In this document: positions 2 through 44,884 of the stretch, piece by piece
Layout of the letters: each line of letters begins with the position of its first letter
Numbering within the stretch: position 1 is the first letter of the stretch
Origin: Pelodictyon luteolum DSM 273
Lineage (GTDB): Bacteria > Bacteroidota > Chlorobiia > Chlorobiales > Chlorobiaceae
Length of the DNA: 64,000 nt
Reading direction: 5' to 3'
Assembly (NCBI RefSeq): GCF_000012485.1
Contig: NC_007512.1
Coordinates: 2,196,501 to 2,260,500, forward strand
The notes under the pieces: model-generated
The model's database searches: none
The model's input: only the letters and a program-made list of their open reading frames with translations
Told to the model about the DNA's origin: nothing
Position numbers and translations under genes: made by a program

Positions 2-1855
2 TGCAAACTGAACATCATAGACACGCCCGGCCTGATTGACTTCCATGGCGACGTAAAGTCCGCTATGCGCGTGGCCGACACGGTGCTGGTCACCGTCAAT
101 GCGTCCACCGGCGTGGAGGTTGGCACCGATACAATCTGGGAGTACACCAAAGAATACTATAAGCCGACCGTCTTCGTCCTGACCAAGCTCGACGCCGACC
201 GAACGCGCTTCAACGAGACAATCCAGGAACTGCAGGACCATTTCGGGCACCTCGTCACCCCGATCCAGTTCCCGGCAGAAGAGGGCGTCGGACATCATAT
301 ACTCATCGATGTCCTTTTGATGAAGCAGCTCGAATTCAACCCGGACAAACCGGGCAGCATGACAGTCTCCGACATCCCGGACATTTATCTGAAACGGGCT
401 GAGGAACTTCACCAGCAGCTTGTCGAAGCAGTCGCCGAAACCGATGAAGAGCTTATGGAGCGCTTCTTCGAGATCGGTTCCCTGACCGAGGACGAACTGC
501 GCCACGGCATCAAAAGTGCACTTGTATCCCGCACCTTCTTTCCGGTGTTCTGCACCTCTCCCCTGCACCTCATCGGCTCTGAGCGTCTGCTGAACGCGAT
601 GGTCAACCTCTTTCCTTCGCCCATAGAGCGTGGCCCGGAGCACTCCCTCTGCACGTCCGGCCAGAACGAACAGCTCCTCGAACCCGATCCGGCAGGCGCC
701 ACCATCGCCTTCATCTTCAAGACCATGTCGGAACCACGAATCGGTGAAATATCCTACCTACGGGTCTATTCCGGCCATCTTGAATCCGGTCATGAACTCC
801 AGGACGTGCAGACCGGCCAACTTGAAAAACCCGGCCAGATCCACACCGTCATCGGCGAAAAACGTACTCCGGTCGACAGCCTTCTTGCCGGTGACATCGG
901 CATGGTCGTCAAGCTGAAGGATGCACATACGAACGACACCCTTGCCGACAAGGGCACCAACTGCCGCATCAGCCCCATCACTTTTCCCGTTCCGGTACTC
1001 GCCACGGCCATCGTGCCGATCACACAGGGCGATGAAGAAAAGATCTCGGCGGGACTCCACCACCTGCATGAAGAGGACCCGAGCTTCTCGATCGAGCATG
1101 ATGTCGAGTTCAACCAGACCATTCTCAAGACGCAGGGAGAGACACACCTCGATATCATCCTCAGCCGCCTTGAAAAGAAGTTCAATGTGAAAGTCGAGAC
1201 CGCCCCGGTAAGGGTCCCATACCGCGAAACCATCCGCGTACAGGCCTCTGCCCAGGGTCGCCACAAGAAGCAGTCGGGTGGACGCGGGCAGTACGGTGAC
1301 GTCTGGGTAAGGCTCGACCCCGCCCCTCGCGACAGCGGATTTGAATTCACAAGCGAGGTGGTCGGCGGCGTGGTCCCCACCCGCTACATCCCTGCCGTTG
1401 AAAAAGGACTCCGCGAGGCTATCGCCTCCGGAACCCTAACCGGCTACCCTGTGGTCGATTTGAAGGCTGTCGTTTACGATGGCTCGTACCACCCTGTCGA
1501 CAGTTCTGAATTCGCGTTCAAGATTGCAGCCGGAATGGCGTTCAAGGCGGCCATCGAAAAAGCTAAGCCGATGGTTCTTGAACCTATTGCGGAGCTCACC
1601 GTGACCGCACCCGACCAGTACACCGGAGAAATCGTTGGGGATATTTCAGCCAAACGGGGAAAGATACTCGGCATGGAGGCGGACGTCCGGATGCAGGTGG
1701 TCAAGGCGGAGATTCCGCAGTCAGCTCTTCCGGCCTTCCATCACTCGCTGACGCGCCTCACCCAGGGCAGAGCACGTTACAGCTATCATTTCAGCCACTA
1801 TGAAGAAGCGCCGGCCGAGGTGGTGCAGCAACTGGTTGCTGAAAAGAATGACTGA
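2..1855 (+). CDS. Elongation factor G-like GTPase (EF-G paralogue), 5' end outside window
   Basis: A translational GTPase of the EF-G family; canonical EF-G moves tRNA and mRNA through the ribosome after peptide bond formation. The reading frame is already open at base 2 and carries the G3 motif DTPG before the first in-window ATG (base 65), so the gene begins upstream. The G4 position reads TKLD instead of the usual NKxD of housekeeping EF-G, which fits the EF-G-like paralogues found beside a normal fusA in many bacteria. The remaining length covers domains II to V, including a C-terminal stretch like EF-G domains IV/V (GGRGQYGDVWV, PTRYIPAVEKGL). It ends at a strong terminator. The exact role of the paralogue is not known from sequence. 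Confidence 0.9.
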   Translation, partial: CKLNIIDTPGLIDFHGDVKSAMRVADTVLVTVNASTGVEVGTDTIWEYTKEYYKPTVFVLTKLDADRTRFNETIQELQDHFGHLVTPIQFPAEEGVGHHILIDVLLMKQLEFNPDKPGSMTVSDIPDIYLKRAEELHQQLVEAVAETDEELMERFFEIGSLTEDELRHGIKSALVSRTFFPVFCTSPLHLIGSERLLNAMVNLFPSPIERGPEHSLCTSGQNEQLLEPDPAGATIAFIFKTMSEPRIGEISYLRVYSGHLESGHELQDVQTGQLEKPGQIHTVIGEKRTPVDSLLAGDIGMVVKLKDAHTNDTLADKGTNCRISPITFPVPVLATAIVPITQGDEEKISAGLHHLHEEDPSFSIEHDVEFNQTILKTQGETHLDIILSRLEKKFNVKVETAPVRVPYRETIRVQASAQGRHKKQSGGRGQYGDVWVRLDPAPRDSGFEFTSEVVGGVVPTRYIPAVEKGLREAIASGTLTGYPVVDLKAVVYDGSYHPVDSSEFAFKIAAGMAFKAAIEKAKPMVLEPIAELTVTAPDQYTGEIVGDISAKRGKILGMEADVRMQVVKAEIPQSALPAFHHSLTRLTQGRARYSYHFSHYEEAPAEVVQQLVAEKND

Positions 1856-1880
1856 GCAGCATTGAAGGCAGCAATAGTAG

Positions 1881-1918
1881 CGCCGGGCAGCATCATGCGG
1901 CCGCCCGGCGTTTTTTTT
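1881..1918 (+). terminator. Rho-independent terminator after the EF-G-like gene
   Basis: An 8-bp perfect stem (CGCCGGGC / GCCCGGCG) with a 14-nt loop is followed directly by eight T residues, 25 bases after the EF-G-like stop codon. Confidence 0.9.
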
Positions 1919-1941
1919 CGTCCCCCCAAAAAAAACTCCGA

Positions 1942-2694
1942 CTAAAGCATTCCGACAAGCGATTTCAGTTTCAGCCACCAGACCATCCATACCGCTTCGC
2001 GGATGTTCCCTCTCGTCATCTTCGACAGCCCCACGGTCCTGTCGGTGAACACAATCGGTACCTCCTGAATCCGGAACCCTTTCTTCCATACCCTGAAGTT
2101 CACCTCGATCTGAAACGAGTACCCCTGCGAAGCGATGCGGTCAAGATCGATTGCCTCAAGCACTTCACGCCGGAAGCACTTGAACCCCCCGGTCGGGTCT
2201 GCAACGGGCATGCCGGTGATGACCCGGGTATAGATGCTAGCCATTTTCGATAGAATCAGGCGGCTGAGCGGCCAATTGACAACGTTGACCCTGTTGCCGA
2301 CATATCGGGACCCTATCACGAGATCCGCAGTTCCAGCAGCGTCAATAAGTACGCCGACCATGGCAGGGTCATGCGAGAAATCGGCATCCATCTCCAGTAT
2401 GAACCTATATCCACCCTCAAGCGCATAGCGGAATCCCTGAATGTAGGCAGTGCCTAGCCCGAGTTTTCGCTCCCGCTTGATGAGATGCAGCCCCCGACAG
2501 TGCTGCTGCATTTCAGCGACAATACTGGCGGTCCCGTCAGGCGAACTGTCGTCGATGACCAGGATGTCGAGAAGCCGGCCGAACGACTTCTGAAGGGTGT
2601 CGATGAGACGCCCGATGTTCTGGCTTTCGTTGTAGGTTGGTATGATGACGAGGGCGGAGGCATAGCCCGCTCCCCCGATCTCTTGCTCGTTCAT
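1942..2694 (-). CDS. GT2 glycosyltransferase, polyprenol-phosphate mannosyltransferase type
   Basis: A 250-residue family 2 glycosyltransferase resembling dolichol/polyprenol-phosphate mannosyltransferase (DPM1), which moves a sugar from a GDP-sugar to a lipid phosphate on the cytoplasmic membrane face. Visible motifs are VIIPTYNES near the N terminus, DDSSPDGT (nucleotide binding), the metal-binding EMDADFSHDP and the acceptor-loop DPTGGFKCFRR. There is no C-terminal membrane domain, so this is the short soluble DPM1-like form. It stands alone, pointing towards the EF-G-like gene. The actual donor and lipid acceptor cannot be told from the sequence. Confidence 0.87.
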   Translation of the reverse strand: MNEQEIGGAGYASALVIIPTYNESQNIGRLIDTLQKSFGRLLDILVIDDSSPDGTASIVAEMQQHCRGLHLIKRERKLGLGTAYIQGFRYALEGGYRFILEMDADFSHDPAMVGVLIDAAGTADLVIGSRYVGNRVNVVNWPLSRLILSKMASIYTRVITGMPVADPTGGFKCFRREVLEAIDLDRIASQGYSFQIEVNFRVWKKGFRIQEVPIVFTDRTVGLSKMTRGNIREAVWMVWWLKLKSLVGML

Positions 2695-2718
2695 ACGTCT
2701 ATTGACAGAGGAGACTCG

Positions 2719-2753
2719 AAAAAAAAGAGCATTGTCAGGCTGACAATGCTCTT
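2719..2753 (-). terminator. Rho-independent terminator of the pscA-pscB unit
   Basis: A 13-bp stem (AAGAGCATTGTCA / TGACAATGCTCTT) with a 3-nt loop is followed on the minus strand by a run of T residues. It lies about 30 bases beyond the pscB stop and just before the glycosyltransferase start. Confidence 0.92.
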
Positions 2754-2784
2754 GTAAAAAACAACGATACGTTCCAGCCTCTCT

Positions 2785-3501
2785 TCAGCGGGCTTCGCGG
2801 TGGAAGCGATGCAGGAAGCGGAGATCAAAATCAAGACGATCAGGCGGCGTGAATGAGAAGTCGAGGACTTCTCCGTCAGGCAGCACTTCAACAAGCGCGC
2901 CGGAAGGGCACTCATCACCAGAGAAGCAGGCCGAGCAGGAAATACATGCAACCTGATCGATGTAGCAGCGGAAGCCGCCTTCCTGAACGTCCCCGTAGAA
3001 CTTGTAGCCGATGGCGTTGACCTTCGGTGGACACTTGTCAAGGCAGAGGCCGCATCCTACACAGAGATTCTCGAAGATGAAGTAATGCTTCTTCGCCCTC
3101 GGAGCCGCAGGCTTCATGGCCGGAGCGGCAGCAGGTGCGGCCTTCGGTGCCGGAGCTGCGGTCGGTGCCGGTTTTGCTCCTGCAGCGGGCTTGGCAGCGG
3201 GTGCTCCTTTAGCCGCAGGTGCTGGTTTTGCAGCGGGCGCTGGTTTTGGAGCAGCAGGCTTCTTATAGGGCAGCGCGGATTCCTGCCGGACGCCGCAACG
3301 GCCAAGGTTGACATTCAGCGGCTCAAGGCGGGCCTTGCCGGCCGGTTTCGCCGCCGCACCCTTCGGCGCTGCCTGCCCCTGCTTCGCGGCTGGTGCCGGT
3401 GCCTTAGGCGGCGCACCCTTCGGCGCTTCCGCCTTGGGCGCAGCCGGAGCCTTCGCGGCTGGTGCCGGCTGAGTTTCTGGCTGTTTTACAGGATCGGCCA
3501 T
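2785..3501 (-). CDS. pscB: Photosystem P840 reaction-centre iron-sulfur protein PscB (FA/FB)
   Basis: PscB carries the terminal FA and FB [4Fe-4S] clusters that take electrons from FX in PscA and pass them to soluble ferredoxin on the cytoplasmic side. The C-terminal third has two cluster motifs: C147-C150-C153-C157 followed by Pro, and C186-C189-C192 then C198 followed by Pro, the last gap being five residues. The first 140 or so residues are an Ala/Pro/Lys-rich, low-complexity, positively charged extension typical of green sulfur PscB. A strong ribosome site (AGGAGGG) precedes the ATG. It lies about 90 bases downstream of pscA, with a hairpin between, and is probably co-transcribed. Confidence 0.95.
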   Translation of the reverse strand: MADPVKQPETQPAPAAKAPAAPKAEAPKGAPPKAPAPAAKQGQAAPKGAAAKPAGKARLEPLNVNLGRCGVRQESALPYKKPAAPKPAPAAKPAPAAKGAPAAKPAAGAKPAPTAAPAPKAAPAAAPAMKPAAPRAKKHYFIFENLCVGCGLCLDKCPPKVNAIGYKFYGDVQEGGFRCYIDQVACISCSACFSGDECPSGALVEVLPDGEVLDFSFTPPDRLDFDLRFLHRFHREAR

Positions 3502-3552
3502 CAGGGAACCCTCCTCTATTGATTATAGTCTTCTGTAGTTTCCTATTGCATT

Positions 3553-36107: not shown

Positions 36108-36335
36108 ATGTCAAACGGATCAAACATCGATGTCGCAGGCGCTGTGAACACTCTTGTCGAAACTGCCGGCAAGCTTTTCCAGCTCCAGATGGACCTCATC
36201 AACAACAGCCTGAAGGCTATCACCAACGCTGCCGAGCCGCTTGCAAAGACTGCAACCGACCTCATCGGCAACCTTGCTGACACCGCCAACCAGGTTCTCC
36301 AGAACGTCTCCGCCGCAATCGCGCCGAAGAAGTAA
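36108..36335 (+). CDS. csmB: Chlorosome envelope protein, CsmB type
   Basis: A 75-residue protein of the CsmB/CsmF family, which sits in the lipid monolayer envelope of the chlorosome antenna. The sequence has the amphipathic LFQLQMDLINNSLKAITN, a second ATDLIGNLADTANQVLQNVS and the C-terminal APKK expected of this family. I favour CsmB over CsmF from the N terminus (MSNGSNIDV) and from its position among neighbours, but the two are close. It has a 145-base AT-rich leader and a strong terminator of its own, so it is a high-level single transcript. No clear ribosome site is visible. Confidence 0.8.
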   Translation: MSNGSNIDVAGAVNTLVETAGKLFQLQMDLINNSLKAITNAAEPLAKTATDLIGNLADTANQVLQNVSAAIAPKK

Positions 36336-36354
36336 GTTCACCTGTCCTTAGACA

Positions 36355-36391
36355 AGCACCTTACGCTACAGGCGTAAGGTGCTTTTTTTTT
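36355..36391 (+). terminator. Terminator of csmB
   Basis: A 12-bp stem (AGCACCTTACGC / GCGTAAGGTGCT) with a 5-nt loop, running into nine T residues, 20 bases after the csmB stop. Confidence 0.95.
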
Positions 36392-36426: not shown

Positions 36427-37428
36427 ATGATCGAGGACCGCATCAGGAACATGCTCGGCAGGGATGAAAGATCCGAAGCCGCCATCACGAGGATTCAGGG
36501 GGATGCCTCCAGCCGCCAGTACTTCAGGGCTGCCACCCCGAACCGCACCCTCATCGCGTGCTACGACCCGCTGTTCGAAGGCCGTGATGCAGCAGGCTAC
36601 CCGTTCCTCGTCATGCACCGGCTGTTTTCCGCCCACGCGGTTCCGGTACCGGAAATCGTTTCGGCCGACAGCACAAGCGGCCTCATCATGCAGGAGGACT
36701 GCGGAAACCTCCAGCTGCAGGATGCCCTCGCTGCCGCCTCGCCCGAAACAGCGGCCCTGCTTTACCAGGATGCCGTAGAACTCATGATCCGCATCCAGAG
36801 GATCCCCCGGAGTACCGAACCCGTCCCCTTCTCACTGTCGTTCGACATGGAAAAGCTCATGTTCGAATTTGACTTCTTCATCGAGCATGCCATCCTCGGC
36901 TACTTCGGCGACTGGTTCAGCGAAGGCGATGCCCTTGCCCTCAGGATGGAGTTCGAAGCGATCGCCCGACTGCTTGTCCGTCCTGAGCAGTTTGTGCTCA
37001 ACCACCGCGACTACCACAGCCGCAACATTCTCATCCACCGGGGCAGGCCGGTAGTCATTGATTTCCAGGACGCGCGCATGGGCCTCTCACAATACGACGC
37101 CGCTTCACTCCTGCGCGACTCCTACAGCCGCCTCCCGGACAAACTCGTCCTTGATCTCCAGCGCCTCCACCACGAAGGGCTGGCATCGGCAGGCATCCAT
37201 AGAGAAGGGTTCGACGGCTACCTCCGCATGTTCGACATCATGGCCTTCCAGCGGAACATCAAAGCGCTCGGAACCTTTGCATTCCAGATGAAACAGCCGG
37301 GAAAGGCCTCGTTCGAAGCATCCATACCACCGACCCTCGCCTACCTGCCACGTTATATCGAACGGCACCGGGAACTGCAGGGCGCCGGGCGGATCCTCCA
37401 GCGCGTCCTGGAAGGAGAGGGCAGATGA
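36427..37428 (+). CDS. amgK: Sugar kinase, AmgK-like (N-acetylmuramate/N-acetylglucosamine kinase)
   Basis: A 333-residue aminoglycoside-phosphotransferase-fold kinase. The catalytic loop reads HRDYHSRN (D195) and the metal loop VIDFQDARMG, the latter shared with AmgK. AmgK phosphorylates MurNAc at C1, allowing UDP-MurNAc to be rebuilt from recycled cell wall. The following gene, overlapping by four bases, is a MurU-like nucleotidyltransferase, the normal partner. The start at 36427 was preferred to an in-frame ATG at 36379, which lies in the csmB terminator. The name rests on the gene pair. Confidence 0.82.
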   Translation: MIEDRIRNMLGRDERSEAAITRIQGDASSRQYFRAATPNRTLIACYDPLFEGRDAAGYPFLVMHRLFSAHAVPVPEIVSADSTSGLIMQEDCGNLQLQDALAAASPETAALLYQDAVELMIRIQRIPRSTEPVPFSLSFDMEKLMFEFDFFIEHAILGYFGDWFSEGDALALRMEFEAIARLLVRPEQFVLNHRDYHSRNILIHRGRPVVIDFQDARMGLSQYDAASLLRDSYSRLPDKLVLDLQRLHHEGLASAGIHREGFDGYLRMFDIMAFQRNIKALGTFAFQMKQPGKASFEASIPPTLAYLPRYIERHRELQGAGRILQRVLEGEGR

Positions 37429-38399
37429 AAGCCTTTGTTCTTGCGGCCGGTTTCGGCACGCGCCTCCGCCCCCTTACCGAACATCTGCCGAAACCGCTGG
37501 TACCGGTGATGAACATCCCGGGCCTCTTCTACACATTCGCGCTCCTTAAGCAGGCAGGCATCACCGAGATCATCTGCAATATCCACCACCATGCCGAGCA
37601 GATACGGCGCTTCATCGAAGAGAGCCGCCTGCCGGGCCTCTGCATCACCTTTTCGGAAGAACCCTCGATACTGGGCACTGGCGGAGGACTGAAGCGGTGC
37701 GAACCCCTGCTGAAGGGCGGGGACTTCCTGCTCGTCAACAGCGACATCATCACCGACATCGATTTCCGGGCGCTCATCGAACAGCACCGCCGCTCGCAGA
37801 GAGCAGGGACGCTCTGCCTGTATGAAACTCCCGAGGCCGCATCAATCGGCATGGTTGGCATAGAGGGCGAGCTCGTCAGGGACTTCGCCGGCCGGCGCGG
37901 CACCGGCATTGAATCATCATTCATCTACACCGGAAGCGCCGTCTTCAGCCCTGAAATCTTCCGCCACCTCGAGACCGGTTTTTCCAGCATCGTCGAAACA
38001 GGGTTCTACGGCCTCGTCGAGCGCAACACGCTCGGATACCACCCGCACCGGGGCCTCTGGCAGGACATCGGCACCCTTGAGAGCTACCTTCGGGCGAACC
38101 TCGATACCCCGGCCGTTCCGGACCGCCTCGGCGCCATCTTAGAGCATGCGCTGGGCATGCGGCCGCACCGGATCGCACCCGATGCCCGGATCGCATCCGA
38201 TGCATCCATCACGCACTCCGTCATCGGAAGCGGGTGCGTCATCGGCAAGGGGTGCCGGGTCCAACGCTCCGTCCTTCTGCCCGGCACGGTGGTGGAAGCG
38301 GGCACAGTGGTGGAGGATTCGGTTGCCGACCAGTACGGAGCAACCCTCGTCAAACCAAAACCTGCAGCCCGGAACATCATCATGGAGCAGAATCAATGA
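37425..38399 (+). CDS. murU: Nucleotidyltransferase, MurU-like
   Basis: A 324-residue sugar-nucleotidyltransferase. The N-terminal GlmU/RmlA-type fold begins AFVLAAGFGTRLRPLTEHLP, with PKPLVPV, the GTGGGL loop and VNSDI. The C-terminal 90 residues carry hexapeptide-like turns (IAPDARIASDASITHSVIG, GCVIGKGCRV), which the shortest MurU proteins lack. As the partner of AmgK it is expected to make UDP-MurNAc from MurNAc-1-P and UTP; a mannose-1-phosphate or glucose-1-phosphate activity cannot be excluded. It overlaps both neighbours by four bases (ATGA). Confidence 0.82.
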   Translation: MKAFVLAAGFGTRLRPLTEHLPKPLVPVMNIPGLFYTFALLKQAGITEIICNIHHHAEQIRRFIEESRLPGLCITFSEEPSILGTGGGLKRCEPLLKGGDFLLVNSDIITDIDFRALIEQHRRSQRAGTLCLYETPEAASIGMVGIEGELVRDFAGRRGTGIESSFIYTGSAVFSPEIFRHLETGFSSIVETGFYGLVERNTLGYHPHRGLWQDIGTLESYLRANLDTPAVPDRLGAILEHALGMRPHRIAPDARIASDASITHSVIGSGCVIGKGCRVQRSVLLPGTVVEAGTVVEDSVADQYGATLVKPKPAARNIIMEQNQ

Positions 38400-39562
38400 T
38401 ACTGACTGGACTTGACCGGCTCCTTGCAGAGCCGGATGGCATAAGCGGACGCTCCATAGGCCTGCTCGTCAACCAGACATCCCTCACCCGGGAGTTCGAG
38501 TACTCCTGGAACGCCCTGAATAGGCGCGGCATCCCCGTCCGGAGGCTCTTCTCCCCAGAACACGGACTGTTCGCCATCGAGCAGGACCAGGTGGCGGTGG
38601 GCTTCGAACCGGAAACCGGATGTGAAACGGCAAGCCTCTACGGCAGCACCGCCGACTCCCTCATCCCGAAAAAGGAGCTCCTTCCGGACCTTGACCTGAT
38701 CATATTCGATATACAGGATGTCGGCTCCCGATACTACACCTACCTCAACACCCTCGCACTCCTCATGGAGGCGGTCTCCGGCATGGGGATCGAAATCATG
38801 GTGCTGGACCGCCCGAACCCCCTCGGGGGAACAGCCGTCGAAGGCCCCATGCTGGATCCTGCATTCCGCTCATTCGTCGGCATTTTCCCCGTCCCGGTCC
38901 GCCACGGCCTCACAGCCGGAGAGCTCGCCCACCTCTACCGCGACTACCGCAAGCTCGATCTGGAGCTCAGCGTGGTCCCTATGGAGGGATGGCGGCGCGA
39001 TATGCTCTTCGGCGATACCGGTCTGCAATGGGTCCCCCCGTCCCCGAACATGCCGACCGTCCAGACTGCCGCCGTCTATCCCGGCATGTGCCTCTTCGAG
39101 GGCCTCAGCGTGTCGGAAGGCCGCGGGACGACGACCCCGTTCGAACTCTCCGGCGCTCCGTTCGTCCATCCCGAAGCGCTGGCTGAAGCATGCCGCTCCT
39201 ATAACCTTCCGGGAATCGTGTTCCGGCCGGCCTGGTTCCGTCCGGGGTTCCACAAGTTTGCAGGGGAAGCGGTGGGCGGGATCGCCCTGCAGGTGAGCGA
39301 CCTCCGGAGCTTCCGCCCCTTCGCAACCGGCGTGGCCATGACCGCTGCGCTCCACCGGCTATACCCCGGTGATGTCCGCTTCCTCCGGGGGGTGTACGAG
39401 TTCAACGACACCGTTCCCGCCTTCGATCTCCTTGCGGGCAACGCTTCAGTGCGGACCTCCATTGAAGAGGACCTCCCGGTTGAGGCCATCATCGACTCAT
39501 GGAGAGCCGACGAAGCAGCATTCAGCGCCGAAAAACAGGCATTCCACATCTACGGCCACTGA
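38396..39562 (+). CDS. namZ: DUF1343 protein, exo-beta-N-acetylmuramidase NamZ-like (GH171)
   Basis: A 388-residue member of DUF1343, now known in Bacillus subtilis (YbbC/NamZ) as an exo-acting beta-N-acetylmuramidase that releases MurNAc from glycan ends. Typical stretches are GLLVNQTSLT, FSPEHGLFA, FDIQDVGSRYYTY, DRPNPLGG and PSPNMPT. The Glu/Asp cluster in these motifs is intact. There is no signal peptide at this start, so the enzyme may act in the cytoplasm, unlike the exported Bacillus protein, or it relies on a different start. The start overlaps the murU stop by four bases. Confidence 0.87.
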   Translation: MILTGLDRLLAEPDGISGRSIGLLVNQTSLTREFEYSWNALNRRGIPVRRLFSPEHGLFAIEQDQVAVGFEPETGCETASLYGSTADSLIPKKELLPDLDLIIFDIQDVGSRYYTYLNTLALLMEAVSGMGIEIMVLDRPNPLGGTAVEGPMLDPAFRSFVGIFPVPVRHGLTAGELAHLYRDYRKLDLELSVVPMEGWRRDMLFGDTGLQWVPPSPNMPTVQTAAVYPGMCLFEGLSVSEGRGTTTPFELSGAPFVHPEALAEACRSYNLPGIVFRPAWFRPGFHKFAGEAVGGIALQVSDLRSFRPFATGVAMTAALHRLYPGDVRFLRGVYEFNDTVPAFDLLAGNASVRTSIEEDLPVEAIIDSWRADEAAFSAEKQAFHIYGH

Positions 39563-39593
39563 CACTCCATGCCGAAACGACAAGCTTCCGCCC

Positions 39594-41015
39594 ATGCAGC
39601 CCCTTGACATCACAATCGTCGTCGTCTTTCTTCTCGGCAACACCATCTTCGGTCTCTGGCAGGGAAGAAGCAACCGGAGCACCGGCGACTACTTTCTCGG
39701 CAGCCACCGTCTTCCGTGGGTGGTGGCCATGCTCTCCATCGTCGCCACTGAAACCTCGGTACTTACCTTCGTCAGTGTTCCGGGACTTGCCTACCGCGGC
39801 GACTGGTCGTTCCTGCAGCTCCCGCTCGGCTACATCGCCGGCAGGATCCTCGTCAGCGCCCTGCTCCTGCCGATGTATTTCCGAGAAGGGGTAACATCCA
39901 TCTATGAGAGCATCGGAACCCGCTACGGCCGGGGCATGCAGCGCCTCGCCTCCGTGGTTTTTCTCGTAACACGCATCCTTGGCGACGGCGTGCGCTTCCT
40001 TGCCACCGCGGTGGTGGTGGAAGTCGTGACCGGCTGGAGCATGCCGCTCTCGGTGCTGATCATCGGCGCCGTCACCCTCATCTACACCATTTCGGGTGGG
40101 CTGAAGGCAGTCGCCTGGCTCGACAGCTTCCAGTTTGCCCTCTACCTGCTCGGCGGCATCATCACCATCGTCTTCATAGGCCTCCACATCGACGGAGGCA
40201 TCCCCGCAGCGCTCCAGACGCTTGGCGCTGAAGGGAAGCTGCAGATGTTCAACTTCGACCGAAACATCCTCCTTGATCCCATGGCGTTCGGCGGCGCATT
40301 CATCGGTGGCATGTTCCTTTCGCTCGCTTCGCACGGAGTCGACCACATGATGGTGCAGCGCGTTCTTGCCTGCAGCAGCCTCGGTGCAGCCCGAAAAGCC
40401 CTCATCGGCAGCGGATTCTTCGTGTTCCTCCAGTTCGCCGTGTTCCTTCTTGCCGGCTCGCTCATGTTCGTTTTCACTGGCGGCGCGCCGCGGGAGCAGG
40501 ACCGGGAGTTCGCAACGTTCATCGTCCAGAGCCTCCCCCCGGGCCTCAAGGGGCTCCTGCTTGCCGGCATCCTCTCAGCCGCCATGTCGACCATTGCATC
40601 CTCCATCAACTCCCTGGCATCCTCCACCGTCACCGACATCATGGGAGGGAATGCCTCGCTCCGGACATCACGCATCATAAGCCTCGGATGGGCAGGGGTG
40701 CTCATCGCCATCGCGCTCGCCTTCAATGAGGGCGACAAGGCGATCATCATGGTCGGGCTGAAAATCGCATCCTACACTTACGGAGGGCTGCTGGGGCTCT
40801 TCCTCCTCTCGACCGGCCGCTGCAGCTTCCACCCCTCGAGCCTTGCCGCAGGCCTCGTTGCCGGCATGGGCACCGTCTTCGCCCTTGACGCCGCAGGGCT
40901 CGCCTGGACCTGGTACATTCTGCTCTCGGCCGCCGTCAACATCCTCATTGTCCACGCAGCCGACGCTTTCCGTCGGGAGAGCTCGGGCAGCAGAGAAAAC
41001 ACCCCCCGAGAGTAA
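39594..41015 (+). CDS. Sodium/solute symporter (SSS family)
   Basis: A 473-residue inner membrane transporter with about 13 hydrophobic segments; the family signature begins DYFLGSHRLPWVVAMLSIVA and includes the conserved GGLKAVAWLD. SSS proteins bring in sugars, amino acids and similar solutes with Na+. It follows the namZ-like gene by 31 bases and may import MurNAc or another wall sugar; in the Bacteroidota species Tannerella forsythia an SSS-family protein is reported to import MurNAc. Substrate is inferred from context only. Confidence 0.85.
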   Translation: MQPLDITIVVVFLLGNTIFGLWQGRSNRSTGDYFLGSHRLPWVVAMLSIVATETSVLTFVSVPGLAYRGDWSFLQLPLGYIAGRILVSALLLPMYFREGVTSIYESIGTRYGRGMQRLASVVFLVTRILGDGVRFLATAVVVEVVTGWSMPLSVLIIGAVTLIYTISGGLKAVAWLDSFQFALYLLGGIITIVFIGLHIDGGIPAALQTLGAEGKLQMFNFDRNILLDPMAFGGAFIGGMFLSLASHGVDHMMVQRVLACSSLGAARKALIGSGFFVFLQFAVFLLAGSLMFVFTGGAPREQDREFATFIVQSLPPGLKGLLLAGILSAAMSTIASSINSLASSTVTDIMGGNASLRTSRIISLGWAGVLIAIALAFNEGDKAIIMVGLKIASYTYGGLLGLFLLSTGRCSFHPSSLAAGLVAGMGTVFALDAAGLAWTWYILLSAAVNILIVHAADAFRRESSGSRENTPRE

Positions 41016-41084
41016 GCTGAAGTCCGCTTTCTTTTGAGTGGGGGTATTGCTACATTGGTTATTAAATCCCCATACGGCAATGGC

Positions 41085-42443
41085 ATGGAACATGCACACG
41101 AACAATTGAGACGCGAGAACGAACGCCTGCGGATGGAGCTCAAGCTCCTGCGGGCCCAGACCTGCGACGGAAACGCCTGCCAGACGCTTGAAATGGCCGC
41201 TGAAGCCAGCCGGACAGGGACCTGGGACTGGAACATCGCCACGGGGGAGCTGAGGGTCGACGAGCGGTGGGCGGAGATGATCGGATTCACTCTCTCGGAG
41301 CTCGGCCACTTCACCCTCGACGCCTGGCACGAACGCTGCCACCCGAACGATCTCGAGCAGTCGGAGCGGGTGCTTCAGGAATACTTTGAAGGCAAACGCC
41401 CGCTTTATGAGGTTGAGCTCCGCATGCTCCACCGTAACGGCCGCTGGGTATGGGTCGTGGCACGCGGCAAAGTGTTCGAGCGCGACTGTGAGGGCAGGCC
41501 GATCCGGATGGTCGGCTCACACCACGACATCACCGAACGGAAAGCCGCCGAAGAAGCCCTCACCCGGAACATCGGGTTCGAGCGGCTGATCACCGCCCTG
41601 TCGAACCGCTTCATCAGCCTCGGTTTTGAGGAAATCGACGGCATGATCATGAGCATCCTCCAGCTCATCGGTGAGTTTGTCGGCGCTGATAGAAGCTATG
41701 TCTTTCAGTTCAGCGACGACCTGCAGCTCATGGACAACACCCACGAGTGGTGCGCTGAGGGTACCGAACCGCAGATTGATGCACTGAAGGGCCTGCCGAC
41801 CGACATCTTCCCCTGGTGGATGGAGCGCATCAACCGCAATGAGTCCATCCTCCTGCCCCGGATCGAAGAGCTGCCTCTGGAGGCCTCGGCCGAACGGGAT
41901 ATCCTCGAAGCGCAGGACATCAAGTCCCTGATCGTTATTCCGCTTACTTCCGGGGCGATCCCGTTCGGCTACATCGGCTTCGACACCGTACACCGCGAAA
42001 TGGAGTGGCAGCCGGACACCGTCTCCATCCTCAAGTTCGCAGGCGGCATCATCGCCAATGCCCTCCAGCGCCAGCGTGCCGAGCAGTGCATCCAGGCCGA
42101 GCTCGACCTTGCCATCAAGCTCAACACCTCAACCTCGTTCCAGGAGACCCTCGCATTCTCTCTCCATGCGGCCATGTCGGTCTCAGGCATGGACTGCGGC
42201 GGCGTCTACCTGGTCAACAAGAACGAAAAGACCATCACCCTCGCTTACCATGAAGGACTCCCGGACGCGTTCGCCCGTGAAGCCGCATGCTACCCCTTCG
42301 ATTCAGAGAACGCCCGGATCATCCAGGAGGGAAAACCGATATACCAGCAGTTCAGCAGGCTCCTGAGTACGGAAAAAAGGAGATCGGTGCCGAAAACCTC
42401 CAGGCCATCGCCATCATCCCGATCATTTACAAGGGAGAGGTGA
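41085..42443 (+). CDS. Hybrid sensor histidine kinase, N-terminal part (frame broken)
   Basis: The front half of a large sensor kinase. A short coiled coil (EQLRRENERLRMELKLL) leads to a PAS domain (about residues 35-150, ending HHDITERKAAEEAL), a GAF domain (about 155-330) and the first half of a second GAF domain. The frame is lost after LLSTEK: it continues for about 20 unrelated residues and stops at 42443, while the second half of the same GAF domain goes on in the -1 frame. The break lies in a run of six A residues at 42373-42378; seven would restore one frame. I chose the ATG at 41085; a TTG at 41034 is also open. Confidence 0.8.
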   Translation: MEHAHEQLRRENERLRMELKLLRAQTCDGNACQTLEMAAEASRTGTWDWNIATGELRVDERWAEMIGFTLSELGHFTLDAWHERCHPNDLEQSERVLQEYFEGKRPLYEVELRMLHRNGRWVWVVARGKVFERDCEGRPIRMVGSHHDITERKAAEEALTRNIGFERLITALSNRFISLGFEEIDGMIMSILQLIGEFVGADRSYVFQFSDDLQLMDNTHEWCAEGTEPQIDALKGLPTDIFPWWMERINRNESILLPRIEELPLEASAERDILEAQDIKSLIVIPLTSGAIPFGYIGFDTVHREMEWQPDTVSILKFAGGIIANALQRQRAEQCIQAELDLAIKLNTSTSFQETLAFSLHAAMSVSGMDCGGVYLVNKNEKTITLAYHEGLPDAFAREAACYPFDSENARIIQEGKPIYQQFSRLLSTEKRRSVPKTSRPSPSSRSFTRER

Positions 42444-44884
42444 TCGGCAGCCTCAACGTTGCATCGCACACCATCAGCCAGGTCCCCGGGTTTGCGCGCA
42501 AGGCGCTTGAAACCGTGACCGCCCATATCGGCGCGGCAATCATTCAGGCCCGGCATGAAGAGGAAATCGCGACAGCAAAGACCAATTTCGAGGTACTCTT
42601 CGACACCATTGACGACTTCCTCTTCATCGTCGACATGGATGGTCTGGTCATCCACACCAACGAAACGGTCCGCCAGCGGCTGGGCTATTCGACCGACGAA
42701 CTGCAGGGCTGCCATGTGCTCCACTTCCACCCCGAGGAACAGCGGAAAGAGGCCGAAGCCAACATCACGGCGATGCTCAAGGGAACAGGGGATGCATGCC
42801 TCGTGCCGCTGCGAACCAAAAGCGGCGAGCTCATTCCGGTTGAGACACGGGTGACGCCCGGCACATGGAACAGCCGCCCGGTGCTCTTCGGCACCAGCCG
42901 CGACATGTCCGAACGGATGCGGGCAGAAGAGACCCTCATGGAAAGCGAACGACGCTTCCGGGAGCTGACCGAGTTCCTGCCGCTGCCCCTCTTCGAGATC
43001 AACCGGCAGGGCATGGTGACTTACAGCAACAACAAGTCAACGGAAGTGTTCGGCTACACCAAGGAGGAGTTTGCCGACAACTTCCCTGTCGCACGCTTCA
43101 CCGTGGCAGAAGAACGCGACCGGGCGTTGCTGAACATGAGCCAGATGCTGGCGGGGCAGCGGCCGGCAAACAGCACCGAATACGGAGCAACAAAAAAAGA
43201 CGGCAGCAGGATCCCGATGCTGCTCTACAGCTCGCCGATCATGCAGGAGGGCGTAATCAAGGGAATACGCGGCATCGCCATCGATCTTACCGACCTGAAA
43301 CAGGCCGAGGACGCGTTGCGCAACATCGCAATTCAGCAACGTCTGGTCAGCGAGTTCCAGGCACTTATCGACAACATCCCGGGCGCGGTCTACCGCATCA
43401 ACCGGGAGGGAAAAACCGTCATTCTCTCGATGGTTGACGACTTCCAGAACGAATTCTCAAAAGAGCGGTTCGAGGCAGAGCTGTTCAACGAGCCCTCCAT
43501 CATCCACCCCGACGACCTGGAAGCCGTTCTCGGATCGAATCGAACCATCGGAGAATCCGGCACCTCAGAAACCCTCACATACAGGATCATCTCCGCCAGC
43601 GGCACCGTTCGATGGATCGAGGACCGCCGCACGCCGGCATTCGGGGAAGACGGCACATTCAACGGCATCGACGGCATCCTGTTCGACATCACCGAACGGG
43701 TCCGGATACAGGAGGACAAGCGGGAGCTTGAGTCAAGGCTCCGCAACACCCAGCGCCTCGAAACCATCGGCACCCTGGCTGGTGGCATCGCGCACGACTT
43801 CAACAATATCCTCACCCCGGTGCTCGGATACGCCGAGATGGGGGCGCTTGAGGTTCCGGTGGAGAACCACCTGCGGGATTATTTCAGGGAAATCGTTCAG
43901 GCTGCCGAGCGGGCAAAGAACCTTGTGTCGCAAATCCTGACATTCAGCCGGGCCCAGGAGAGCGAAGCGACAGCGGTCAACATGCAGTCCATCATCACCG
44001 AAGCCCTCAAACTCCTCCGGCCCTCCATTCCCAGCACCATCACCATTAAGAGGAATCTCGACCAGAAATGCGGAAACATTCTGGCAGATCCGTCGCAGAT
44101 CCATCAGGTAATCGTCAACCTCTGCACCAACGCCTTCCAGGCGATGGAACAGTCGGGCGGCACCCTTTCCCTTGAACTCGGCGAGATTGCTCCCGGGAGC
44201 GAACGACTGAAAATGTTCCCCCGCCTGGAACAGTTGAACTGCATCCACCTCTCCATTACCGATACCGGGTCAGGCATGGACGAAGCCACGATGGAGCGCA
44301 TCTTTGAGCCCTTCTTCACCACGAAATCGGTCAACAAGGGCACCGGGCTCGGCCTGTCGGTCGTGCACGGCATCATCACGAGCTACAATGGCGAAATCAC
44401 CGTTGAAAGCCAGCCCGGAATCGGAGCCACCTTCCACGTCTACCTGCCGGTCATCAACGAGGAGATCCATGAGGAGCCGATGCAGGAACCCATGTCGGGC
44501 GGAATCGGGCGCATCCTCTTCGTCGATGACGAAGTGGCGACCGTCAAGCTGATGCAGGAGATGATCCCGAAACTCGGTTTCAGCATCGCATGCTTCAACT
44601 CCCCCCACAACGCCCTCGAGGCATACAGCAAAGAGCCTGACCGGTTCGATCTGCTGTTGACCGACCTGACCATGCCGGAGATGACCGGCATCGAGCTGGC
44701 ACGAAACATCCACAAGCTCAATCCCTCAATTCCTGTCATACTCCTGACAGGTTACGGCAAGGACATCGAACTCACCTCGCCGCTCAACCGCTACGGCATC
44801 ACGAAGTTCCTGAAAAAACCGGTCCAGCGAAGCGAACTCGGAGCAGCAATCAATGAAGTCATTTCAGCAAATAAGCCCCAATGA
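42287..44884 (+). CDS. Hybrid sensor histidine kinase, C-terminal part (frame broken)
   Basis: The rest of the same sensor: the second half of GAF2 (IGAENLQAIAIIPIIYKGEVIGSLNVA), then three PAS domains, a HisKA box with the phospho-His in GGIAHDFNN, the ATPase (NLCTNAFQAMEQ, DTGSGMD, FEPFFTTK, GTGLGLSVVHG) and a C-terminal receiver (LLLTDLTMPEMTG, KKP). Its real coding part starts at about 42374; the ATG at 42287 lies upstream in the shifted frame and has no GAF likeness before that point. It is followed, with a four-base overlap, by a response regulator gene. Confidence 0.85.
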   Translation: MLPLRFRERPDHPGGKTDIPAVQQAPEYGKKEIGAENLQAIAIIPIIYKGEVIGSLNVASHTISQVPGFARKALETVTAHIGAAIIQARHEEEIATAKTNFEVLFDTIDDFLFIVDMDGLVIHTNETVRQRLGYSTDELQGCHVLHFHPEEQRKEAEANITAMLKGTGDACLVPLRTKSGELIPVETRVTPGTWNSRPVLFGTSRDMSERMRAEETLMESERRFRELTEFLPLPLFEINRQGMVTYSNNKSTEVFGYTKEEFADNFPVARFTVAEERDRALLNMSQMLAGQRPANSTEYGATKKDGSRIPMLLYSSPIMQEGVIKGIRGIAIDLTDLKQAEDALRNIAIQQRLVSEFQALIDNIPGAVYRINREGKTVILSMVDDFQNEFSKERFEAELFNEPSIIHPDDLEAVLGSNRTIGESGTSETLTYRIISASGTVRWIEDRRTPAFGEDGTFNGIDGILFDITERVRIQEDKRELESRLRNTQRLETIGTLAGGIAHDFNNILTPVLGYAEMGALEVPVENHLRDYFREIVQAAERAKNLVSQILTFSRAQESEATAVNMQSIITEALKLLRPSIPSTITIKRNLDQKCGNILADPSQIHQVIVNLCTNAFQAMEQSGGTLSLELGEIAPGSERLKMFPRLEQLNCIHLSITDTGSGMDEATMERIFEPFFTTKSVNKGTGLGLSVVHGIITSYNGEITVESQPGIGATFHVYLPVINEEIHEEPMQEPMSGGIGRILFVDDEVATVKLMQEMIPKLGFSIACFNSPHNALEAYSKEPDRFDLLLTDLTMPEMTGIELARNIHKLNPSIPVILLTGYGKDIELTSPLNRYGITKFLKKPVQRSELGAAINEVISANKPQ

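Follow-up and report, generated by a model that had tools for sequence, protein, structure and literature searches.

The window, meaning the whole stretch of 64,000 nucleotides analysed here, belongs to the single-contig genome of Pelodictyon luteolum DSM 273 (2,364,842 bases). It carries a compact group of four genes encoding an AmgK-like kinase, a MurU-like nucleotidyltransferase, a NamZ-type glycosidase and an SSS-family symporter (Table 1). The amgK/murU and murU/namZ junctions are 4-base overlaps, the namZ/SSS gap is 31 bases, and a plus-strand search within the group revealed nothing resembling a terminator between one gene and the next. The preliminary description of this DNA had read them as a single operon with this spacing, and the coordinates, the overlaps and the 31-base gap were all reproduced. 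Among 20 fetched operons, the amgK-murU overlap was exactly 4 bases in 16, while the other gaps ranged from -7 to +27 and from 13 to 90 bases. All four Pfam families (APH, NTP_transferase, NamZ_N plus NamZ_C, and SSF) scored over their cut-offs, the NamZ domains far over.

Table 1. Features of the four-gene operon and the terminator preceding it (window coordinates)
Feature	Position	Strand	Description
intrinsic terminator	36354..36384	+	strong; 14-pair stem, T-tract; ends upstream 74-75-aa ORF, just before operon
amgK-like	36427..37428	+	333 aa; APH-fold sugar kinase, proposed MurNAc/GlcNAc 1-kinase
murU-like	37425..38399	+	324 aa; sugar-1-phosphate nucleotidyltransferase, proposed MurNAc-1-P uridylyltransferase; predicted extra C-terminal left-handed beta-helix
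namZ	38396..39562	+	388 aa; exo-beta-N-acetylmuramidase (GH171 type) by homology, without signal peptide
SSS-family sodium:solute symporter	39594..41015	+	473 aa; putative uptake system for MurNAc or for a saccharide ending in MurNAc

The small ORF just upstream of the operon (36108-36334, 74-75 aa) had no Pfam match, and we take its product to resemble a chlorosome envelope protein of the CsmB type. Downstream, two overlapping ORFs at 41034-44884, the first PAS/GAF-like and the second with a PAS-HisKA-HATPase-receiver arrangement, look like the two halves of a single sensor kinase whose frame shifts near 42370.

The kinase matched Pfam APH with 88.5 bits, and its catalytic motifs HRDxHxRN and IDFQDAR were invariant, as expected of an APH-fold kinase. 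Its AlphaFold model (pLDDT 92.4) was closest in the PDB to 3csv, a putative aminoglycoside phosphotransferase. Against the NCBIfam AmgK equivalog NF045759 it scored 132.8 bits (E 1.4e-38), well under the cut-off of 550. AmgK itself acts on both MurNAc and GlcNAc (PMC5371407). The possibility that the gene product is simply the common AmgK-like protein of Bacteroidota was ruled out, as that protein is only 24-32% identical to it, far apart on the tree and usually fused to a C-terminal domain bearing an FGCTGGQHRSVY motif. This additional domain, seen in the AmgK-like proteins of L201, L202, L204-L210 and L212 (other Bacteroidota), resembles the C-terminal domain of RapZ.

The second protein has the MurU-type TGGG motif, and its best PDB sequence match was P. 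putida MurU (4y7t), with 37.7% identity over 215 aa. This value is similar to the 36.6% identity between the MurU proteins of P. aeruginosa and Caulobacter, the latter belonging to a pathway supported in vivo (PMC13046382). In the structural model (pLDDT 91.2), the catalytic domain aligned with P. putida MurU at 34% by structure alignment and a TM of 0.88 on the target. At whole length, the additional beta-helix beyond the catalytic domain made the model more similar to GDP-mannose pyrophosphorylases than to MurU. The score against the NCBIfam MurU equivalog was 137.6 bits and did not reach the cut-off of 250. The earlier naming of the two proteins as AmgK and MurU therefore stands as far as families and motifs go but falls short of the equivalog cut-offs, and since the scores lie below these thresholds, the names are putative ones that rest on homology, motifs and context. 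Both equivalog models may be narrow.

The operon NamZ matched NamZ_N with 249 bits and NamZ_C with 162.6 bits, both over the curated cut-offs, and retained the SPEHG, DxQDxG, LDRPNP and SEGRG blocks. To our knowledge, the NamZ proteins described so far are exported. We compared the N termini of the operon copies with those of their relatives. None of the 20 operon copies had a signal peptide; all shared the same start Met and lacked a hydrophobic stretch, and many of the frames open only 2-12 codons before that Met, so that no signal peptide could be encoded. In contrast, a second type of Chlorobiaceae NamZ bore a classical hydrophobic signal in 14 of 15 fetched sequences, the exception (L064) having an open frame that begins too late to show one. 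Signals were likewise present in 5/5 NamZs examined from other Chlorobiales, and a signal or lipoprotein-like start was seen in 15 of 16 from other Bacteroidota, L199 being the one without. These results confirm the earlier remark that the NamZ-like protein lacks a signal peptide and, because the signal-less operon copies stand against signal-bearing paralogs and relatives, a cytoplasmic location is a conserved, predicted property of the operon copy.

The operon NamZ is conserved at 62-91% identity, and its ancestry differs from that of the exported copy. In the NamZ tree, operon and spirochaete proteins formed one clade (support 100/99), and every exported NamZ of Bacteroidota fell outside it. 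A recent duplication within the lineage was rejected: forcing all Chlorobiaceae NamZs together gave an AU p of about 5e-148, a value to be read with caution since the tree has long branches. Two individual sequences merit description. The NamZ of L199 (G138) has no room for a signal peptide and is a long-branched neighbour of the operon clade. The exported second namZ of the P. luteolum genome (L053, 4698-6158) lacks an evident start codon: the 70 codons preceding its signal peptide include neither ATG nor GTG nor TTG, and its frame reads back through an apparent tRNA gene.

The symporter scored 103.8 bits against Pfam SSF (cut-off 22.8), matched NIS, SMVT and a SiaT-type symporter in the PDB, and its gene is conserved in the fourth operon position. 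Tannerella MurT is known to import free MurNAc (PMC7670621; PMC5790795). The cargo of the operon symporter is probably a MurNAc-ended saccharide.

The preliminary description had proposed a gene-order survey across Chlorobi, and we carried this out on 61 genomes sampled across the class (54 Chlorobiaceae and 7 other Chlorobiales). The results showed that amgK, murU, operon-type namZ and the SSS gene occur in 53 of the 54 Chlorobiaceae, in a fixed order wherever contigs are unbroken (contig breaks interrupt the region in G003, G005 and G027), and only G013 lacks all four. A second, named collection contained 69 Chlorobiaceae loci, of which 63 were fully collinear and 5 others stop at contig ends; at the remaining locus, L134, the roughly 2 kb following murU showed no NamZ. 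This gene order is found again and again within the family, so the arrangement is not a product of chance. The set as such is missing from 7/7 other Chlorobiales, each of which has one NamZ, convergent with an SSS gene in 3 of the 7. An old Bacteroidota pairing of NamZ and SSS was considered and rejected, since adjacency was limited to these 3/7, was convergent, and was not general in the phylum sample.

The close relative G014 has an operon symporter with 96% identity and an operon NamZ with 91% identity to the window proteins. The G014 operon (L033) is a mosaic: over 1554-3529, compared with window positions 36427-38399, AmgK and the first ~80 MurU residues are about 50% identical, whereas the remainder of MurU, NamZ and SSS are 81-96% identical. 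Its AmgK is closer to that of G036 than to the window AmgK. This pattern suggests that a recombination event replaced amgK of G014, one breakpoint lying within murU.

An AmgK profile search matched Spirochaetota MAGs at 44-49% identity, and both NamZ and AmgK of the operon were closest to Spirochaetota homologues. The order amgK-murU-namZ occurs in L182 and L177, with NamZs that are 55-57% identical and have no visible signal peptide, and in L172 amgK-murU is followed by a truncated SSS gene. Among 11 spirochaete loci, NamZ lies beside amgK-murU in 2 and SSS in 1, indicating that the four-gene unit is not obligatory there. The pair adjoins ftsA and ftsZ in L173 and L177 and ftsZ in L180 and L181, and in L182 a Mur ligase gene, MurC-like by sequence, lies a few kb upstream. 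Such neighbours argue, as independent evidence, for a role in peptidoglycan rather than in another nucleotide sugar. The spirochaete link also suggests that the cassette moves between phyla; the NamZ and AmgK trees disagree on how Spirochaetota and Chlorobiaceae are nested. Our literature search found no paper describing the four-gene set in green sulfur bacteria, in keeping with the preliminary description, but the set is not confined to them, as amgK-murU-namZ also occurs in Spirochaetota.

We then surveyed the recycling enzymes that accompany AmgK and MurU elsewhere, with two Chlorobiales proteins as queries, the AnmK of G001 and the MurQ of G032. AnmK was found in 0/54 Chlorobiaceae compared with 7/7 other Chlorobiales, and MurQ in 0/54 compared with 5/7. 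E. coli queries against eight genomes agreed, detecting AnmK and MurQ only outside Chlorobiaceae. The same eight genomes gave no AmpG match with the E. coli query (nor did TIGR00901 match in the P. luteolum genome) and, as a weak result from a single E. coli query, no NagA match. Most of the eight contain two GH3/NagZ-like genes, and these proteins carry export signals in P. luteolum (both) and in two Chlorobaculum genomes. With AnmK, MurQ and AmpG not found and the NagZ-like GH3 enzymes exported, the usual feeders of AmgK are missing, and the operon NamZ is therefore the likely source of its MurNAc. Mutual exclusion of MurQ and AmgK-MurU has been described in proteobacteria (PMC5371407). Our search found no report of AnmK loss together with the gain of an internal NamZ.

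MurNAc-GlcNAc would most obviously come from a GH73 endo-glucosaminidase, but none was found in P. luteolum or in four other operon-bearing Chlorobiaceae, and this source of the disaccharide was set aside for P. luteolum. The operon-less G013 (L095, L067) was the only one of nine genomes tested with a GH73 glucosaminidase domain. As for the origin of the sugars, the preliminary description had spoken of salvage, but the uptake of foreign wall was not borne out: MurA was found at 47-52% identity in 8/8 genomes with E. coli queries, and most gave a weak MurB-like match. Because MurA is present and a MurB-like match was found, the cell more likely recycles its own wall than salvages foreign wall.

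On balance, and with real reservations, we favour the view that the operon by itself encodes a complete route by which amino sugars of the cell wall are recycled in the cytoplasm, with activities assigned by prediction. In the periplasm, exported enzymes, including the NagZ-like GH3 proteins and the second NamZ, would trim turnover saccharides. Before import, exported NagZ may leave MurNAc as the non-reducing end, a form of substrate suited to an exo-muramidase inside the cell. The symporter would then import MurNAc-GlcNAc or a similar short MurNAc-ended saccharide, from which cytoplasmic NamZ would cleave the non-reducing-end MurNAc. Free MurNAc would thus be supplied by NamZ in place of AnmK (or, compared with Pseudomonas, in place of AnmK plus MupP). 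AmgK would phosphorylate MurNAc at C1, and probably the released GlcNAc as well; MurU would convert the former product to UDP-MurNAc, bypassing MurA and MurB, and GlcNAc-1-P would pass to GlmU. Import before cleavage has a precedent in S. aureus, which takes up MurNAc-GlcNAc and splits it intracellularly with MupG (PMC6262408). The least secure elements of this account are the molecule that the symporter carries and where that molecule comes from, given that no GH73 enzyme was found.

The closest competitor keeps the same sugars and moves the cleavage outside: exported NamZ and NagZ would release monosaccharides in the periplasm, the symporter would import free MurNAc for activation by AmgK and MurU, and the cytoplasmic NamZ would merely clean up incidental saccharides. 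An exported NamZ occurs in nearly all Chlorobiaceae, exported GH3 enzymes are present, and MurT sets the example of free MurNAc import (PMC7670621; PMC5790795). We nevertheless regard this as unlikely, though a serious contender, since it leaves unexplained why a NamZ so tightly bound to the operon is cytoplasmic, conserved at the level given above and of other ancestry. A more distant alternative is that the kinase and nucleotidyltransferase activate another sugar, for instance GlcNAc alone or a component of LPS or capsule, and that the cytoplasmic NamZ acts on another glycoside. The missed equivalog cut-offs and the likeness of the whole MurU model to GDP-mannose pyrophosphorylases are consistent with it, but NamZ is encoded in the same operon, the nucleotidyltransferase has the MurU-type TGGG motif and the identity to P. 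putida MurU given above, the spirochaete relatives neighbour a Mur ligase gene and ftsA-ftsZ, and within Chlorobiales the operon is present exactly where AnmK and MurQ are absent, G013 excepted. We consider this reading improbable. It is harder still to credit that NamZ is exported to the periplasm by some unrecognised signal and that the operon works like the known secreted-NamZ systems. Non-classical export is conceivable as far as sequence tells, but the exported-type paralogs in the same genomes bear classical signals and the operon partners are cytoplasmic enzymes and an inner-membrane symporter.

The proposed cytoplasmic route shares with AmgK-MurU recycling in Pseudomonas, Caulobacter and Tannerella the adjacent kinase and uridylyltransferase genes, the order of the chemistry, the predicted bypass of MurA and MurB, and the absence of MurQ where AmgK-MurU is present. 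Unlike the Pseudomonas-type pathway, it lacks the AnmK-MupP feed, as none of the 54 Chlorobiaceae genomes has AnmK, and it adds the predicted cytoplasmic NamZ, the SSS symporter and the C-terminal beta-helix of MurU to the AmgK-MurU systems. The likeness to S. aureus MurP-MupG-MurQ is one of principle only, in that a MurNAc-GlcNAc-type fragment would be imported and then cleaved by a muramidase inside the cell; here the importer is an SSS protein rather than a PTS, the muramidase is NamZ rather than a DUF871 6-phospho-muramidase, the proposed substrate is unphosphorylated, and the outlet would be anabolic rather than through MurQ. The operon NamZ has both Pfam domains and the conserved blocks of B. 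subtilis NamZ (GH171) and T. forsythia NamZ1/NamZ2, but is predicted to be cytoplasmic and falls in its own clade with Spirochaetota. As in Tannerella MurT-MurK-MurQ, a gene for a sodium-symporter-superfamily protein, here a putative MurNAc importer, lies beside genes for MurNAc enzymes, whereas MurK and MurQ are absent here and phosphorylation is predicted at C1 instead of C6.

Cell-wall sugar recycling is known mainly from anhydro-muropeptide routes (AmpG, NagZ, AnmK) or PTS-based uptake. Chlorobiaceae are a photoautotroph family in which AnmK and MurQ either disappeared or were never present and which carries this compact unit instead, with a glycosidase predicted to lie on the opposite side of the membrane from its described NamZ relatives. 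Tentatively, and short of what we would call probable, the operon may represent a new route that green sulfur bacteria share with part of the Spirochaetota, in which a MurNAc-GlcNAc-type saccharide would enter by sodium symport, a signal-less NamZ would cleave it, one kinase would activate both sugars at C1, and MurU and GlmU would yield UDP-MurNAc and UDP-GlcNAc, all without AmpG, AnmK, MupP, MurQ or a cytoplasmic NagZ. If this is true, genomes annotated as having AmgK-MurU without AnmK would be complete rather than broken, and predictions would follow for fosfomycin tolerance and for the release of unrecycled anhydro-MurNAc by Chlorobiaceae.
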